Positions 11,197 through 21,287 of a stretch of 64,000 nucleotides of DNA are shown here, piece by piece. The DNA is from Bacillota bacterium (GTDB lineage: Bacteria > Bacillota > Clostridia > Ch29): contig JABVCK010000029.1 in NCBI GenBank assembly GCA_013540605.1, forward strand, positions 186,001 through 250,000. Reading direction: 5' to 3'. A program made the position numbers and the translations under genes. The notes under the pieces were generated by a model, which saw nothing but the letters and a program-made list of their open reading frames with translations, did no database searches and was not told the origin of the DNA. Positions within the stretch are counted from its first letter, which is position 1, and the number at the start of each line of letters is the position of its first letter.

Positions 11197-11986
11197 TTAT
11201 TCTTCCTGTATTAGCATTTCTTTCTTAGGTTTAACGCTGTATATCAAAAGAACTGCAGAAATTATCATGCTTATTCCCAATGTCTGTAATAGAGTCAAAG
11301 ACTCCCTGAGGACAATAACTCCTAAAGAAACTGAGACAACCGGTTCAAGCGTGCTGAGGATAGATGTCCTTGAAGAGCCGATTTCCCTGAGGCCCATAAA
11401 AAACAGGATATTTGATATGACTGTGGAAAAAACAGCCGTTACCAATATAGCCAGCCAACCCTTTGGTGAAACGTTTACGTTAAATTTACCGGTCAAAAAA
11501 CCTGTCAGAAGGAGAGATATTGTCGCAGCAGTAGTAAGATAAGTGGTAACAGTGATGGAGTCTACGTTATCAAGCTTTCTGGCGAACTTGCTCCCCAGCA
11601 TGATCAGCTCTGTTCCGAAGCTCAGGCAGGAGCAGAAAGCAAGAAATACCCCCACCCAGTTTATATACGAAACCGGAGACCAAACCATAATAATACTCCC
11701 AAGCAGTGCCAGGGTTAAAGCGACCGCTTGCTTTGGTACTATCATAAACAATTCCGCCAATAACAAAAAGAACAAATGCCTGGCTGCGGTCAACCCTGAC
11801 CTTGTCCTTCCCACGAAATACCAAACCGTATATCCATAGCAACACGGAAGCTATTAAAAATCGCATTGCAAGAACATATATAGTATTTGCTCCTTCGTTA
11901 TAGGCAATTTTTGCAACTACTACATTAATACCGTATAAGAACGCTGCAATTATTATTAAAGAGCTGCCTTTGAATTTTCTATCCAT
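11197..11986 (-). pseudogene. EamA/DMT-family transporter with internal deletion and frameshift
   Basis: Read on the minus strand, the first frame (from 11986) has the start of an EamA drug/metabolite transporter (GSSLIIIAAFLYGINVVVAK, then a second membrane helix). Near 11750 the homology jumps to another frame (KQAVALTLALLGSIIMVW) that carries the second EamA repeat to the end at 11197 (LREIGSSRTSILSTLEPVVS). The helices expected between these parts, about 50 residues, are missing. Complete proteins have about 290-300 residues and ten helices. The two overlapping frames are therefore pieces of one broken gene. Confidence 0.8.
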
Positions 11987-13080: not shown

Positions 13081-13755
13081 TAAACGAATCTAAGGCCCTC
13101 CTTGGATTTATATGTTTTAGTGTTCAGTCCCGGCTATTACCGGCAAAACCCATTGGAGATCTTTGCCGTTTATAATGGCGGCCTGTCCATACAGGGAGTG
13201 CTTATAGCGGGCATCATATTTGCTGTCTGGTATACCAGAAGAACAGGAATAGGTTTCTGGAGAACCGCAGACGCCTTTGCTCCGGCAATAATTTTGTGGC
13301 AGGCTATAGGCAGGATTGGCTGCGACGTTTTCGGGGTTCCAATGGATAAGGCTTATCCGTGGGGCGTGATGGTGGGCTCCCAGCTGCTGCACCCTGCCCA
13401 GTTATACGAAGCCCTGTTGAACCTGGCGTTGTTCACGTATCTGTGGTGGAGCAGGGGCAGAACAAAATATGACGGGCAGTTGTTTATCAGGTATTTAATC
13501 GGCTTTTCGCTGATAAGGGCAGCAATTGAATTCTTCAGGACAAATCCGGTGGTTATCGGACCTTTCACGGTAGCCCATGTGACAAGCCTTGCGATAATAA
13601 CAGCATCAATAGTGACGGGCTCGTTACTAAAAAGAAAGGCAAAGAGAAATGAACCTGATACCGGAGAAGGTCCTTCAAGGGTCAGTCTCCTTGAGTATTT
13701 AATAATTGTGGCCGGCGGCGCAGCCGGAACTTTGATTTATTTCAGCATTTACTAA
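13081..13755 (+). pseudogene. lgt: Prolipoprotein diacylglyceryl transferase-like, 5'-truncated
   Basis: The frame encodes the middle and C-terminal part of Lgt: FSPGYYRQNPLEIFAVYNGG, LSIQGVLIAG, GRIGC in the catalytic arginine region, HPAQLYEALLN and LIRAAIEFFRTNP. Lgt transfers diacylglycerol from phosphatidylglycerol to the cysteine of prolipoproteins. The first 60-70 residues, with the first membrane helices, are missing because an in-frame stop occurs at 13081, and no ribosome binding site fits the TTG at 13102. The loop after GRIGC (DVFGVPMDKA) also departs from the usual pattern. It is probably a relic or a specialised paralogue. Confidence 0.65.
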
Positions 13756-13794
13756 GAGGAGGATATCTCAAGGCATTTTGTTATAGTCAACGGT

Positions 13795-14712
13795 ATGAAC
13801 CACAGCGGGCATACCGGGCATGCCCCGGCGGTATCCATGCCGGTACTTGTTTTCAAGAAAGAACAGTTTACGGATGAAGAGTTGGATACTTTGAATAAAG
13901 TGGTTTCGGCGCAGGGAAGGCAGTATATTCATCTGCCTGGCGTTATGGAGATAGGTGAATACAAAACACTCGGACAAGAAGGGAACAGCTTTGATGAACT
14001 GCTGGATAAAATACCGTTTAATGCGGGTCCGGTGGTTGATGACAGCCCTTTCTTCTACAATTATGACAGGTTTGTTCCAAAGCTGCTCCTTGCTATTATT
14101 GCTGCTGCTGTTATGGCAATCATGGTATTCAGCCGGTTTAACGGGTACAGGGTGAGAGACAGCAGAATAGTATATTTTTCTGCTCTGGGTATAGCCTATA
14201 TAATGGTGGAGATTCCGGTAATCCAGAAGATGTCTTTGTTCTTTGGAAGCCCGTCCCTTGCATTTTCTGTTGCGGTACCGGTTCTTCTGGCCAGCAGCGG
14301 TATAGGCAGCCTGATAAGCAGAAGCAAACAACTCAGTAAGTATAACAGATATGTACCGGAAATGGCAGCAGCCATTGGTGCCTTGTTGGTGGTTGCAGGA
14401 TTAAACTATATTGCTGTCCTGCCGGGACTGAAGCGGGTGCTGGACAAGGTAATGCTTGCGGTTCTGGTGCTGTTTCCGGCAGGCTTCTTTATGGGAATGC
14501 CTTTTCCCAGTGGCATTGCCAGGATTAAATCAGGCAGGGAAGACAAGGCAATCCCCTTTATGTGGGGAATTAACGGGCTTGCATCGGTTCTCGGTTCGAC
14601 GCTGGCTACCGTCTTCTCTATGAAGTTTGGTTTTAGCGTAGCGATACTAGCCGGAGCAGCGGTGTATATTCTTTTGTTTTTCAGCAGGTTACAGGGAAAG
14701 CTTGCACGATAG
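13795..14712 (+). pseudogene. C-terminal part of a polytopic spermidine-synthase-like membrane protein
   Basis: This 305-residue frame has VDDSPFFYNY followed by about seven hydrophobic helices, including YFSALGIAYIMVEIPVIQK and GFFMGMPFPSGIARIK. That arrangement is typical of the last third of large membrane proteins that carry a spermidine-synthase-like domain. The upstream domain and helices are missing. It is in the same frame as the Lgt-like remnant before it, separated by one stop codon and 13 codons, and its ATG lacks a close ribosome binding site. I treat it as a truncated gene; a stable C-terminal product cannot be excluded. Confidence 0.55.
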
Positions 14713-15070: not shown

Positions 15071-15990
15071 CTAATATCTCTTCCTTTTATTTGCCCGCAG
15101 GATTCTCAGTTCGCCTCTATAGTTGGCAACGGTTCTCCGGGAAATGTCTATTCCCTTGCCTGATAGGATGCCGGTAATGTCCTGGTCACTATACGGTGCG
15201 GCCTTATTTTCGTTTTCAACAATTGATCTTATCATCCGCTTTATACTCTCTGAAGACACTGTGAGCCCTTTGGTATTGGTCATACCGCTTTTGAAAAAGT
15301 ATTTAAACTCATAGATTCCCCTTGGTGTATCCATGAATTTTCCGTTTACGGTCCTGCTCACAGTGGATTCATGTATTCCGAGCTTTTGGGCTATATCGGC
15401 CTGGGTCAAAGGCTTTAAGTGCATAGGACCGTCTTTGAAAAAATCGTGCTGTACGGACAGAATTTCTGATGCTACCCTGTAGATGGTATTCTTTCTGTCC
15501 CCAATTGACTTTATTAGTTTCACAGCCTTACTAAAATTATTTTGGAGAAATTCTAAGGTATCCCTATCAATATCTGATGGGTTTGCGAGCATTTTCCTGT
15601 AAAAGTCGTTCACCCGGAGGCGCGGGGCGCAGGTGTCGTTGACCAGTACTATAAATGCGCCGTCAATTTGTTTGATTGTGACATCCGGGATAATATACTG
15701 TATGTTCCGGTTGGACCCGAATAGTCTTTCGGGTTTTGGCTCAAGCAGCTTTATATAGTCAACTGCCTCCTGCTTCTTCTGAAAGAACTTTATTATTTAA
15801 AAGCAAATATCCGTTTTCATCAATGTTATTGATGATATAGCGTGCAGTTTTCCTATCCTCAGAATTAAGGTTTGTAAATGAAAGCTGGGCAATCAGGTGG
15901 TCCTTAAGGTTAGCAGAAGTAGAAATTTCCGGGGTTCGGGACGGGGCAATTTCCTTGTTATGACCATTATCGTAATCGTAATTGGAAGCG
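15071..15990 (-). pseudogene. rpoN: RNA polymerase sigma-54 factor remnant
   Basis: The minus-strand C-terminal part is well kept: RNA-polymerase and DNA-binding regions with LTQADIAQKLGIHESTVSRT and the RpoN box variant SRRTVANYRGELRI near 15100. Upstream in the same frame are PDVTIKQIDGAFIVLVNDT and KLLEPKPERLFG, then a stop near 15790. The other frame carries earlier family sequence (LKDHLIAQLSFTNL, IINNIDENGYLLLN). About 80-100 residues that should separate DENGYL from the LLEPKPE helix are missing, as is the glutamine-rich activator-interacting N-terminus. The GTG-started 180-residue piece alone should not be a working sigma factor. Confidence 0.85.
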
Positions 15991-16053: not shown

Positions 16054-16101
16054 TTGACATATGCCCAATATAATATTAGAATTAATAATGGGCATAAGCC
16101 A
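16054..16101 (+). promoter_or_regulatory. Promoter A with two-part CATATG / GGGC-N4-GCC element
   Basis: TTGACA (16054-16059) and TAGAAT (16077-16082) are 17 bases apart. The -35 box runs into GACATATGCCCA (16056-16067). A second dyad, TGGGCATAAGCCA (16089-16101), lies 6 bases after the -10 box. The half-sites ATATGCCCA and TGGGCATAA are inverted and about 30 bases apart, near three helical turns. It drives the NifX-family genes. Confidence 0.7.
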
Positions 16102-16137: not shown

Positions 16138-16518
16138 ATGAAGGTTTGTATTTCGTCGAAGGGAGATTCATTGGATAGTACAATGGATCCTAGATTTGGA
16201 AGAGCGGCATATTTTGTTATTACAGATATCGATACAATGGAATATGTAGTAATAGAAAACGCTGCAGCAGCTTCTGGCGGCGGGGCTGGGATCACTTCGG
16301 GGCAGCTTATGGTTGATAAGGCAGTGGCAGCGGTAATCACGGGCAATGTAGGACCAAATGCCATGAATGTTTTAAAGGCTGCAAATATTGAAGCTTATCA
16401 CGGGGCTGATATTTCAGTAAAAGAAAATATTGAAAAGTTCAAAAAGGGGCTTCTTGAAAAAATCAATACAACAGTTCCTTCCCATTACGGCATGGGTTTA
16501 CAGGGAGGACAGAAATAA
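16138..16518 (+). CDS. Dinitrogenase iron-molybdenum cofactor (NifX/NifB-like) family protein
   Basis: This 126-residue protein has the NifX/NifB C-terminal-like fold: KVCISSKGDSLDSTMDPRFG at the N-terminus, a glycine-rich loop (ASGGGAGITSGQ) and AVITGNVGPNAMNVLKAANI. The family includes the orange protein ORP of Desulfovibrio, which binds a Mo-Cu-S cluster, as well as NifX and NafY carriers. It is the first gene after promoter A and is followed 24 bases later by a paralogue. The bound cluster, if any, is not visible from sequence. Confidence 0.9.
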   Translation: MKVCISSKGDSLDSTMDPRFGRAAYFVITDIDTMEYVVIENAAAASGGGAGITSGQLMVDKAVAAVITGNVGPNAMNVLKAANIEAYHGADISVKENIEKFKKGLLEKINTTVPSHYGMGLQGGQK

Positions 16519-16542
16519 AATCTTTTTAATGGAGGTTTTACT

Positions 16543-16926
16543 ATGCGTATAGCAATTTCTACAGACAGGAGACATGTTTCTCCGCATTTCGGAAGATGTC
16601 CGTCCTTTACTCTGGTTGATATTGAAAATGGCAAAACATTGAAAAGGGTGGAAGTTGAAAATCCTGGACATTCGCCGGGTTATATTCCTCAGTTTTTGCA
16701 TGAAAAGGGTGTTAAATGAATTGTCTGCGGTGGTATGGGGACAAGAGCACAAGGTTTTTTCGATGAACTGGGTATAGAAACGATTATGGGAGTGGACGGA
16801 AAGCTAGATGAAGTAATAGAAAAACTGGAGAAGGATATGCTTGTAGGTGGAGAAAGCTTATGTGCACCAGGTGCAGGAAAAGGATATGGTGTTGAAAAAA
16901 CTGAATGTGACCATGCTCATGAGTAA
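16543..16926 (+). CDS. Second NifX/NifB-family protein with an in-frame TGA at codon 59
   Basis: An ATG with a good GGAGG starts family sequence (MRIAISTDRRHVSPHFGRC, PGYIPQFLHEKGVK), which meets TGA at 16717-16719. The same frame continues perfectly conserved after it (IVCGGMGTRAQGFFDELGI) to GAGKGYGVEKTECDHAHE and a TAA at 16926. From memory, related proteins often have Cys at the TGA position (GVxCIIxGGMG). The reading is either a selenocysteine codon, a nonsense mutation, or a sequence error. A small stem (TTGTC/GACAA) with a G-rich loop starts 2 bases after the TGA, closer than usual for a bacterial SECIS. Nearby genes are broken, so the nonsense option is serious. Confidence 0.75.
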
Positions 16927-16951: not shown

Positions 16952-17278
16952 ATGCCGTTCGGAGATGGAACCGGTCCGATGGGCATGGGCCCGATGACAG
17001 GCAGAGGAGCAGGGTTTTGCGCGGGTTTTCCAGTACCCGGTTATATGAATCCGGCAGTGGGTTGCGGAATGGGTTTTGGCAGAGGCCGGGGTTTCAGGAG
17101 AATGTTTTATCTTACAGGTATGCCGGGATGGGCGCGGTACGGTTACCCTGCATATGGCGCAGCATATGCACCTGCAGTAGATGAAAAGGAATTTCTGAGT
17201 AGCCAGGTGGAGTTCCTGGAAAACCAATTGCAACAGGTGAAGAAGCGTTTGAAGATGCTCAATGAGGAGACCGAATAA
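16952..17278 (+). CDS. DUF5320 family protein
   Basis: This 108-residue protein begins with the glycine/methionine-rich pattern PFGDGTGPMGMGPMTGRG, continues with FGRGRGFRRMFY, and ends in a coiled-coil helix (residues about 78-106, VEFLENQLQQVKKRLKML). DUF5320 proteins are small, of unknown function, and recur beside NifX-type proteins and MinD-like ATPases in anaerobes. A paralogue lies at 37142, also next to a DUF134 gene. GAGGAGG precedes the ATG. Confidence 0.85.
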   Translation: MPFGDGTGPMGMGPMTGRGAGFCAGFPVPGYMNPAVGCGMGFGRGRGFRRMFYLTGMPGWARYGYPAYGAAYAPAVDEKEFLSSQVEFLENQLQQVKKRLKMLNEETE

Positions 17279-17335: not shown

Positions 17336-17432
17336 CCTATCATATACAAAATACTGCTGTTAATCATTTAAAAATAATGATAAAATGATAATGAAGTTTT
17401 AGGTGTTTTATATAGAAAGGGGAATGAAAAGC

Positions 17433-17912
17433 TTGGCAAGGCCAACAAAGTGGAGAAAGGTTGAGTTCATACCCAATGTGCAATACTTTGCTCCCTATGA
17501 TATTGATGCTGATGCCTTGCAGGAGAATATTATTCGTATCGAGGAACTTGAAGCTATACGTCTAAAGGATCTTGAAGGCATGGAGCAGGAAGAATGTGCT
17601 GAGAAGATGGAGGTGTCAAGGCAAACTTTTCAACGCATCCTGAATGTTGCAAGAGAGAAGATTGCTGACAGCCTTATAAATGGAAAGGCTATCAGAATTG
17701 AAGGAGGCAATTATACGCGTAATATCTGTCCTGTAAAGTGTCTTGACTGTGGAAAACAGTGGAGTGAAAGCTACGAAAACTTTCAGAAAATATTGAATGG
17801 AGAATTTAACTGCCCTAACTGTAATTCTAAAAGAATCGTTTGCTCCCGCAGTGAGAAAAAGAAGTTTTGCAGGCGAAATTGCTGGAGACACGGCAGGGAA
17901 GGTATTGATTAA
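17433..17912 (+). CDS. DUF134 family DNA-binding protein with zinc-ribbon tail
   Basis: The TTG at 17433 (GGGG 10 bases upstream) gives the usual family start MARPTKWRKVEFIP; the ATG at 17424 lies only one base after that site. The protein has 159 residues. A sigma-factor-like helix-turn-helix (LEAIRLKDLEGMEQEECAEK, VSRQTFQRILNVAREKIAD) is followed by IEGGNY and a cysteine-rich tail (CPVKCLDCGKQW, CPNCNSKRIVC, CRRNC) that could bind metal or a cluster. It is a good candidate for the regulator of the CATATG/GGGC-element promoters around it; that is inference from position. Confidence 0.85.
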   Translation: MARPTKWRKVEFIPNVQYFAPYDIDADALQENIIRIEELEAIRLKDLEGMEQEECAEKMEVSRQTFQRILNVAREKIADSLINGKAIRIEGGNYTRNICPVKCLDCGKQWSESYENFQKILNGEFNCPNCNSKRIVCSRSEKKKFCRRNCWRHGREGID

Positions 17913-18280
17913 GCATAAAAAATGTTCCCAAAACAGTGTGTGGAGACTGGAGTTTTATATCCCAGTCTCTTTTACTTTATTACATGAATGCAAGTTAGTA
18001 CAATTACATATCTCTGATTAGAGTTTTTCGCATATTGACATATCTATGCACTAGTGTTAAAATATATTATGGGCAAAAGCCCAAAAAAATTATATCTCTC
18101 ATTAATTTGATTGAAATAGGGGAAATAGCTTTTGATGGATCAGTATTAAAATTTAAAAGGGGCTAAATGGGCATTGGCTCAATAATAAAACGTGGTTGAG
18201 CATTTACAGATGCTAAACGCGTTATTTTTTTAAAAGCAAATTGAAAATGATTATCAATTTCGCTGTAAAGGGGTACAGAT
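17913..18280. other. Leader region upstream of feoA
   Basis: After a short AT-rich stretch this region holds promoter B (18035-18083) and a leader of about 200 bases with no evident gene. A degenerate copy of the downstream element, TGGGCATTGGCTCA, lies at 18168-18181. Confidence 0.55.
18035..18083 (+). promoter_or_regulatory. Promoter B with GGGC-N4-GCCC element, upstream of feoA
   Basis: TTGACA (18035-18040) and TAAAAT (18058-18063) are 17 bases apart. The -35 box runs into GACATATCTATGCA, a degenerate form of the first element. TGGGCAAAAGCCCA (18070-18083) is a perfect dyad starting 6 bases after the -10 box, as in promoter A. Confidence 0.7.
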
Positions 18281-18526
18281 ATGATGCAAAAAAGAAGGTT
18301 GCAACTTTCTATGATGAAAAATTCACAATCCGGAATACTTGCAGCAATCAACGGAGGTGTAGGGATGCGAACCAGGCTTGAAGCTCTGGGCATTCGTGTA
18401 GGAGCGAGAATTCAAAAGAAAAGCGCGCTGGCTGGATTCGGCCCTGTTATAGCTTCGGTAGGAAATACTGAAATTGCCATAGGGTACGGAATGGCTTCGA
18501 GAATCTTTGTGGAGGTGGATGAGTAG
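18281..18526 (+). CDS. feoA: FeoA domain protein
   Basis: This 81-residue protein has the SH3-like FeoA fold (GGVGMRTRLEALGIRVGARI, GPVIASVGNTEIAIG, ASRIFVEV). FeoA assists the ferrous iron transporter FeoB. A ribosome binding site (AAAGGGG) precedes the ATG; a second ATG follows directly and could also be used. Its TAG overlaps the GTG start of feoB by one base. It is intact although the feoB next to it is broken. Confidence 0.85.
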   Translation: MMQKRRLQLSMMKNSQSGILAAINGGVGMRTRLEALGIRVGARIQKKSALAGFGPVIASVGNTEIAIGYGMASRIFVEVDE

Positions 18527-19470
18527 TGAAGATTCTTCTCATAGGTAATCCTAATGTGGGAAAGAGTGCCATATTCAGCCATCTCACAGGAGTGAGTGTT
18601 ACCACATCCAATTATCCCGGAACTACGGTGCAGTATGCAAAAGGGTATTTGATATACAATGCACGGAAATATGAGATTATTGATGTTCCTGGTACATATC
18701 AGCTTGATCCTGAAGCTGAATCCGAAAAAGTCGCGCTGATATGATAGAAGTAGGAGACATACTCGTGAATGTAGTTGATTCAACAAATCTTGAGAGAAAC
18801 TTGAACCTCACGTTCCAATTAATGGATTACGGCAAACCGATGGTGCTGGTTGTTAACATGTGGGATGATGCAAAGCATAAAGGAATCGAAATAGACACCG
18901 GCAAACTGGAAAAACTTCTTAAAATCCATTCGATTATGAAGGGGCTATGGGAGTTTTGACAACAGGGGCGTTTGTGGCATTAGGTATTGTTCTGCCTTAT
19001 ATATCCTTATATATTCCTATTTTATCTGGTGTTTGGGTTTATTGAAGATCTGGGTTACCTTCCAAGGGTTGCTATAATCCTTGATAGATTGCTGCATAAA
19101 ATAGGTCTGCATGGTTATTCAGTGATACCTAATGTGCTGGGAGGTATATTTATAATCAATCTTTTTGCATGTTTCCGGTGTTATAGCCTGGATAGGCAAG
19201 TTGTTTTCCCCCGTGGTTAAAGGCGTATTCGGCCTTCCCGGGGAAATAGTGGCTGCATTGATCATTGGCACAGTCAGAAAGGATGCGGCAGTTGCACTGC
19301 TTGAACCTATCGGGTTAAGCAGTATGCAGATGGTTACTGCAGTAGTCGTACTTACATTGTATTTTCCATGTGTAGCAACCTTTACTGTTTTATTCAAAGA
19401 ACTCGGTATTATGGATACTGCAATATTATTGATTATCCCTCAGCAGCGATTGAATATCAATAATTATTGA
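18526..19470 (+). pseudogene. feoB: Ferrous iron transporter FeoB, heavily degraded
   Basis: The G domain is recognisable: P-loop GNPNVGKSAIFSHLTG, the switch region SNYPGTTVQYAKG, and DVPGTYQL. One base is lost near 18738, shifting the frame into MIEVGDILVNVVDSTNLERN, with VVNMWDDAKHKG as the guanine-specificity region. Near 18925 the rest of the G domain is deleted and the sequence jumps to the membrane part, with fragments in several frames (GVLTTGAFVALGIVLPYI, FGFIEDLGYLPRVAIILDRL, GTVRKDAAVALLEP). Complete FeoB has about 600-700 residues; fewer than 300 remain in four or more frames. Confidence 0.92.
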
Positions 19471-19524
19471 CATATGCTCAGAATAATAATATGATTTAAT
19501 TGCAAAACAAATGGGCATAAGCCC
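19467..19524 (+). promoter_or_regulatory. Promoter C with two-part CATATG / GGGC-N4-GCCC element
   Basis: TTGACA (19467-19472) and TATGAT (19490-19495) are 17 bases apart. The -35 box runs into GACATATGCTCA. TGGGCATAAGCCC (19512-19524) lies 17 bases after the -10 box. It drives the paired MinD-like ATPase genes. Confidence 0.72.
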
Positions 19525-19590
19525 TAAATATACGTTGTAAAAAGTAGAAGTATAACAGATTTATAGTATGAACTTATGAGGAGGTCAGGG

Positions 19591-20421
19591 ATGAAAATAG
19601 CTGTTTTAAGTGGAAAGGGAGGAACGGGTAAAACGACTGTTTCTGCGAGTCTGGCGGCGTCACTGCCGTCTTGCCAGTATATAGACTGCGATGTGGAAGA
19701 GCCCAATGGGGCAATATTCTTAACACCTGAACTGAAGGAAAGTTCACCTGTAAAAGTACCGGTGCCTGAAGCGGATATGGCAAAATGCAATGCATGCGGT
19801 TATTGCGGCAAGGCATGTCAGTTTAATGCAATTGCTGTAGTGAAGGGTAAGGTTCTTGTGTTTCCCGAAATCTGCCATCACTGCGGAGCATGCGTTATAG
19901 CCTGTCCTAATGATGCAATCAGAGAAGTGGAAAGGACTATCGGAGTTGTTGAAGCAAACGGGGATGGCACATTCCTGCAGGGGAAGCTTAACGTAGGCGA
20001 GCCTATAAGCATACCTATCATACGTGAACTTAAAAAGCGTATAAAAAACGATGTGACTGTGATACTTGACTGCTCACCAGGGGCTTCCTGTACAGTAGTG
20101 CAGTCTATTGAAGGATGTGATTATTGTGTGCTTGTAACGGAACCGACGCCTTTTGGACTCCATGACTTGAAGATAGCCGCACAGCTTGTTAAAAAGATGG
20201 GTTTGCCTTTTGGAGTTGTATTGAATAAGGCTTCCGACAGCAGCAGACTTATACACGAATTCTGTGAAAATGAAGGGATTGAGCTGCTAATGGAAATACC
20301 TTTTTCACAGGACATTGCCGAAGGCTATTCAAAAGGTATTCTTCCTGTACAGAATAATGGTTTGTGGAAAGAAAAATTTGAAAAGCTTTATGAAAAGATA
20401 GAAAGGGGTGCTGAGAAATGA
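19591..20421 (+). CDS. MinD-like P-loop ATPase with ferredoxin insert (first of pair)
   Basis: The ATG at 19591 is chosen because GAGGAGGT lies 5 bases before it; an in-frame ATG at 19576 precedes that site. The 276-residue protein has the deviant Walker A motif LSGKGGTGKTTVSA, then a two-cluster ferredoxin insert (CNACGYCGKACQF, CHHCGACVIACP) at residues about 65-110, and the ATPase continues with ILDCSPGASCT. This architecture matches the ORP3/ORP4-type ATPases of the orange protein complex, where paired ATPases may load metal clusters on NifX-type proteins. It overlaps the next gene by four bases. Confidence 0.9.
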   Translation: MKIAVLSGKGGTGKTTVSASLAASLPSCQYIDCDVEEPNGAIFLTPELKESSPVKVPVPEADMAKCNACGYCGKACQFNAIAVVKGKVLVFPEICHHCGACVIACPNDAIREVERTIGVVEANGDGTFLQGKLNVGEPISIPIIRELKKRIKNDVTVILDCSPGASCTVVQSIEGCDYCVLVTEPTPFGLHDLKIAAQLVKKMGLPFGVVLNKASDSSRLIHEFCENEGIELLMEIPFSQDIAEGYSKGILPVQNNGLWKEKFEKLYEKIERGAEK

Positions 20422-21287
20422 AGCAGATTGTATTTATAAGCGGAAAGGGAGGAACGGGAAAGAGCACCCTGGTCTCATCACTGAGCATTCTTGTTCAGGA
20501 TAAAATGCTTGCCGATTGTGACGTTGACGCACCGAATTTGCACATTCTCTTGAAAGGTGAACTTCTGAAGAAGGATAACTATTTTGGCGCAAAGGAAGCT
20601 GTGATTGATTCAGCGGCATGTGTAAAGTGCGGCTTGTGCAAAGAAACATGCAGATTCAATGCTATCAGTGAAGAATTTGAAATCATACCGATGAAATGTG
20701 AAGGCTGTGGTGCATGTATACTGGTATGTCCACAGGAAGCAATACGGTTGGAGGAAGTCAAGACGGGAGAGACATTTGTATCCGGCACCTCAAGAGGAAC
20801 CTTTTCCCATGCACTGCTTGATATTGGAGCTGAAGGGTCCGGCAAGCTTGTAACAGAGGTAAGAAAGAACATATATAATTACAAAAAGAATGAAAAATGG
20901 GTGCTTATTGACGGCTCTCCAGGCATAGGGTGCGTGGTTATTGCATCTATTACAGGAGCGGATGCAGTGGTTGCGGTTTCTGAACCTACAAGGTCCGGTA
21001 AAAGTGACCTGGAAAGGGTTCTGGGCGTAGCAAGACATTTTGGAATACCGTCATTTGTTTGTATAAATAAATATAATTTGAATCCGGAAGTAACTTCAGA
21101 AATAGAAGATTTCTGCAGGAATGAAGGTTTCCCCGTTATTGGAAAGATACCTTTTGATCCGTCTATAGTAAAAGCTTTGCAGGAATTCAAGACTCCGATC
21201 GAGGCCGGTAATAATGCTGTAACCAATGAGATTACGAGCATATGGATGAGGCTTACCGATGAAATGAAGAAATTTGAAAGTGTATAG
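20418..21287 (+). CDS. MinD-like P-loop ATPase with ferredoxin insert (second of pair)
   Basis: Its ATG overlaps the stop of the previous gene (ATGA), so the two are translationally coupled and probably work as a heterodimer. The 289-residue protein has FISGKGGTGKSTLVSS, a ferredoxin insert with CVKCGLCKETCRF and CEGCGACILVCP, and LIDGSPGIGC as the Walker B region. It matches the second ATPase of ORP-like clusters. The role in iron-sulfur or molybdenum-copper cluster assembly is inferred from the architecture and neighbours. Confidence 0.9.
   Translation: MKQIVFISGKGGTGKSTLVSSLSILVQDKMLADCDVDAPNLHILLKGELLKKDNYFGAKEAVIDSAACVKCGLCKETCRFNAISEEFEIIPMKCEGCGACILVCPQEAIRLEEVKTGETFVSGTSRGTFSHALLDIGAEGSGKLVTEVRKNIYNYKKNEKWVLIDGSPGIGCVVIASITGADAVVAVSEPTRSGKSDLERVLGVARHFGIPSFVCINKYNLNPEVTSEIEDFCRNEGFPVIGKIPFDPSIVKALQEFKTPIEAGNNAVTNEITSIWMRLTDEMKKFESV

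Follow-up and report, generated by a model that had tools for sequence, protein, structure and literature searches.

The window analysed here, i.e. the whole stretch of 64,000 nucleotides, contains an operon with two NifX-like genes, the second of which is interrupted by a stop codon (Table 1). The frame of this second gene translates as MRIAISTDRRHVSPHFGRC...EKGVK*IVCGGMG...CDHAHE*, the TGA being its sole internal stop, and no second lesion was found in the gene. Apart from codon 59 the frame is intact, as the initial annotation had proposed: the start codon is present, a GGAGG lies 7 nt 5′ of the ATG, and the C-terminus is conserved. When read through, the frame matches PF02579 with an E value of 6.4e-22 and passes the Pfam gathering cut-off (78.1 bits vs. 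26.3). As this match runs over residues 9-96, both flanks of the TGA belong to one domain.

Table 1. Features of the interrupted NifX-like gene and of its surroundings (positions in the window)
Feature	Positions	Strand	Remarks
EamA transporter	11197-11986	-	split by frameshift
Lgt-like frame, followed by a membrane protein frame	13102-14712	+
rpoN (sigma-54) pseudogene	15071..15990	-	split across frames; directly beside the ORP-like locus
TGGGCNNAAGCC motif, three copies	16089-16100, 18070-18081, 19512-19523	+
First NifX-like gene of the operon	16138..16518	+	intact; PF02579, E 9.4e-24
Ribosome-binding site (GGAGG) of the interrupted gene	16531..16535	+	assigned from sequence
Interrupted NifX/ORP-type gene	16543..16926	+	127 codons; PF02579 Nitro_FeMo-Co; single in-frame stop
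In-frame TGA, codon 59	16717..16719	+	very likely a nonsense mutation; sense codons at the site in relatives
Hairpin directly 3′ of the TGA	16721..16744	+	same fold in CGA and CAG relatives
DUF5320 gene	16952..17278	+	intact; PF17253
DUF134 putative DNA-binding regulator	17403..17912	+	intact; Pfam
feoA	18281..18526	+
feoB pseudogene	18526..19470	+	FeoB_N and Gate fragments lying in separate frames
Two MinD-type ATPases with ferredoxin domains	19576-20421, 20418-21287	+	intact; as in ORP loci

The interrupted gene comes second in an ORP-like locus. Specifically, its NifX-like product adjoins MinD-type ATPases with ferredoxin domains, the arrangement by which an ORP-type locus is recognized. 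In Desulfovibrio, the ORP complex comprises the NifX-like protein Orp8 and two MinD-type ATPases with ferredoxin domains (PMC6345978), and the orange protein (PDB 2wfb) is a relative of the window protein that is detectable by sequence. The window gene resembles the NifX-like proteins of ORP loci (2wfb; Orp8/DVU2108) in its PF02579 domain, in a conserved HFGRC motif and in the identity of its neighbours (PMC6345978), whereas it differs from them in being cut by a TGA at codon 59 and in belonging to a clade that has no Cys at this site.

The three copies of the motif TGGGCNNAAGCC lie just upstream of the NifX-like operon, of feoA and of the MinD-type ATPase operon, respectively; 0.29 copies were expected, and three were reached in none of 100 shuffles. 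By eye, a TTGACATAT-like box precedes each copy at a short distance, and TTGACA-like boxes are seen upstream in the ORP-type locus. The motif also precedes the same locus in the relative L062. TGGGCNNAAGCC is probably a shared operator, for which the DUF134 protein would be a candidate regulator.

Genes close to the locus had been described as broken, and this holds for feoB, rpoN and the EamA transporter, all of which are in pieces. In particular, the feoB pseudogene consists of four frame-shifted pieces and is far shorter than an intact feoB, while three intact FeoB frames of 614-715 aa are present elsewhere in the genome and an intact rpoN lies on contig 9. The orp operons of Desulfovibrio depend on sigma-54, as in Desulfovibrio vulgaris. 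In the region of the Lgt-like frame, the PF01790 match starts only at profile position 64, and the membrane protein frame that follows has no Pfam match and looks N-terminally truncated. A second locus, located on contig 31, carries two intact NifX-like genes identified by Pfam, together with a DUF134-like gene and an Mrp-type ATPase, both named from sequence.

The selective regime of the interrupted gene was assessed by comparison with its relatives. Pairwise dN/dS values range from 0.06 to 0.20 on either side of the TGA, and the window copy shows a single unique change, G9R, at sites that are invariant within its clade. In other words, neither unique replacements nor dN/dS gave any sign of relaxed selection in the window copy, and the few unique replacements together with the low dN/dS argue against an old pseudogene. 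The low dN/dS on both sides of the TGA indicates that the lesion is recent. Taken by itself, the absence of relaxed selection would be compatible with a mutation of recent date, with a base-call error and with continued function alike.

The residue at codon 59 differs markedly between near and distant relatives. The initial annotation had proposed a frequent Cys at this position (GVxCIIxGGMG). In a first, class-level comparison Val was found in 21 of the 29 class relatives, which suggested that the proposed Cys was wrong; this objection was dropped after a GTDB-wide scan of 81 relatives, chiefly from Omnitrophota and other phyla, had shown that no residue is commoner than Cys in the wider subfamily (59 of the 81, some with CxxC), and it was replaced by a test of codon 59 at the level of the clade. 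The window gene falls into a supported Bacillota clade (support 100/93 with 11 rows and 97/67 with 13 rows), among whose other members neither Cys nor TGA was found at this codon. The clade residues are Arg (CGA in L036, CGG in L066), Gln (CAG in L061 and L062, CAA in L064 and L065), Gly (GGA in L143, an additional close relative), Phe (L063), Val (L006), Lys (L007 and L127) and Leu (L076 and L082), the closest relatives using CGA, GGA, CAG, CGG, TTT, CAA and GTG. Thus, the proposed Cys is correct for the wider subfamily and does not extend to the window's own clade, and the expectation that close relatives would carry Cys or TGA, if the codon specified selenocysteine (Sec), was contradicted. 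The most similar relative, L036, shares 88% identity over its 68 available residues, and its CGA is one C-to-T transition away from TGA. A paralogue in the window's own genome has Ala (GCT) at the equivalent codon.

Among the sequences compared, the in-frame TGA is present in the window copy alone, rather than being conserved in at least two sequences. Specifically, three genome surveys, which covered relatives, the class and the phylum in overlapping samples of 148, 391 and 398 genomes, list no other match with an internal TGA, and none was seen in the 81 further relatives. The other in-frame stops among homologues, a TAG in L144 and a TAA in L145, lie only near the C-terminus.

The genome of the window decodes selenocysteine. 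The initial annotation had made a selenocysteine reading dependent on selA, selB, selC and selD, and the machinery is indeed present, with selD, selA, selB and a tRNA-Sec in one cluster of about 6.5 kb on contig 11 (L003). An in-frame TGA interrupts SelD (TASSG*AAK), and one internal TGA occurs in GrdA. Four GrdB-type frames (L048-L051) all have a TGA in the context ILTST*GT(C/S)TRCG, and 18 nt beyond it each shows the 3-nt loop of a similar hairpin. The window gene shares with SelD, GrdA and GrdB an in-frame TGA in a frame that is otherwise open, in a Sec-decoding genome. In contrast, these three are known selenoprotein families whereas the window site is not conserved, and the hairpins of SelD and GrdB are strong and correctly spaced, of a kind that the window site lacks. 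A literature search combining selenoproteins with ‘dinitrogenase iron-molybdenum cofactor’ found nothing, and a 2026 review names neither NifX nor orange protein; the only Sec candidate that it lists is a nitrogenase component I alpha subunit with a GenBank annotation.

As a possible bacterial SECIS hairpin, a stem had been pointed out directly behind the TGA. This stem, TTGTC (16721-16725) paired with GACAA (16740-16744) around a 14-nt loop, is present, while RNAfold prefers a slightly different hairpin over the same nucleotides, with a 6-nt loop (-8.4 kcal/mol, z -2.1 vs. shuffles). In most bacterial SECIS elements a stem of 4-16 bp carries a loop of 3-9 nt whose first two positions include a G, and the distance to the UGA is 16-37 nt (PMC13188914). 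The loop starts 6 nt after the TGA in the first of the two hairpins and 10 nt after it in the RNAfold version, so that the doubt already voiced about so close a hairpin was justified. Moreover, the same fold forms identically, at -6.1, in L036, which has CGA, and in L062, which has CAG. Its presence there indicates that the hairpin tracks the conserved IVCGGMG coding sequence and not the TGA, so that it is not a TGA-linked SECIS. When hairpins conforming to the SECIS rules were sought, the best one at the window TGA reached -4.6 kcal/mol; 40% of 1500 in-frame sites drawn at random from the same genome did as well or better, whereas the positive controls gave -15.5 (selD) and -8.3 to -13.9 kcal/mol (the four grdB). 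The GrdA site of this genome was missed, with -1.4 kcal/mol; the scan is thus informative, though not perfectly sensitive. Accordingly, no bSECIS conforming to these rules and better than chance was found at the window TGA.

These results bear unequally on the possible readings of the TGA, two of which, selenocysteine and nonsense, the initial annotation had offered with no choice between them. If SelB and tRNA-Sec inserted selenocysteine at UGA-59, a UIVC redox or metal-binding motif would arise and the protein would found a new selenoprotein family. This is very unlikely, since the nearest relatives carry other residues and no proper SECIS signal follows, and this despite a complete selA, selB, selD and tRNA-Sec set, genuine selenoproteins encoded by the same genome (selD, grdA and four grdB), Cys at the site in most wider relatives, an intact frame under purifying selection on either side of the TGA and a G-rich hairpin right behind it. 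Most bacterial selenoproteins are thought to derive from Cys forms (PMC1794560, PMC13188914), so that Sec at a site that has drifted away from Cys would be unusual; the own paralogue with Ala, the restriction of the TGA to a single genome and the chance-level score of the rule-conforming hairpin likewise argue against it. A variant in which UGA-59 would be read by means of a non-standard, very close SECIS, placing UIVC where distant homologues have CxxC, is just as improbable, and the short-range hairpin on which it would depend is common to relatives with sense codons.

An error of base calling or assembly, with a sense codon really present and the NifX-like gene intact, would leave the biology equally ordinary. 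A single lesion in one assembly, one substitution away from the CGA of L036 and with no relaxed selection, is what such an error would produce; nevertheless, the multiple frameshifts and deletions of the nearby feoB and rpoN look biological, and an error is improbable, if somewhat less so than selenocysteine. Least credible is a functional split or readthrough, in which a near-cognate tRNA would suppress the UGA, or translation would restart at the ATG at 16735 to give two cooperating halves. The stop is followed 15 nt later by this ATG, and 63 codons of the downstream frame are open, but the GGTGG in front of it is only 1 nt away, too close for a good ribosome-binding site, and the cut falls within the single PF02579 domain.

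The TGA is very likely a recent and ordinary nonsense mutation rather than a selenocysteine codon, and of the two readings first offered this is the one that the comparison with relatives supports. The interruption is real but ordinary. As in ordinary nonsense-mutation pseudogenes, one substitution accounts for the stop, the close relatives all have sense codons at the site, the paralogues are intact and the neighbours are decaying; no difference from such pseudogenes was seen. Some features count against a nonsense mutation: the stop codon is TGA, it stands in a genome that decodes Sec, and Cys occupies the site in the majority of the subfamily, where the CxxC of some members would become UxxC in the window protein; likewise, neither a second lesion nor relaxed selection is seen, and the SECIS scan is imperfect, as GrdA shows.

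The most likely course of events begins with purifying selection, which acted on the gene until recently. A point substitution, most simply from CGA (Arg) to TGA, would then have struck the second NifX-like gene of the ORP-type locus. Translation would most likely stop after 58 residues, leaving a half-domain presumably devoid of function. The loss may have been tolerated, on the one hand because contig 31 provides another locus whose two NifX-like genes are intact and, on the other, because the window locus was already decaying at feoB and rpoN. Given these intact paralogues and the eroding surroundings, a fresh loss would be unremarkable.

Selenocysteine at this site, if true, would bring selenium into the ORP metal-cluster system and would extend the range of spacings accepted for bacterial SECIS elements. 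If it is a nonsense mutation, the case serves mainly as a warning: a TGA aligned with a family-wide Cys in a Sec-decoding genome can still be no more than a stop, which is revealed by close relatives only and not by distant ones.

A further observation concerns the distribution of Cys in the wider NifX/ORP subfamily (L061-L140). Here, Cys59 tends to be paired with Ala62 (42 sequences), and sequences devoid of Cys59 tend to have Cys62 (17 sequences), while both Cys59 and Cys62 are present in 13 sequences. In these alignments, the pattern looks as if one Cys had been shifted by three residues.
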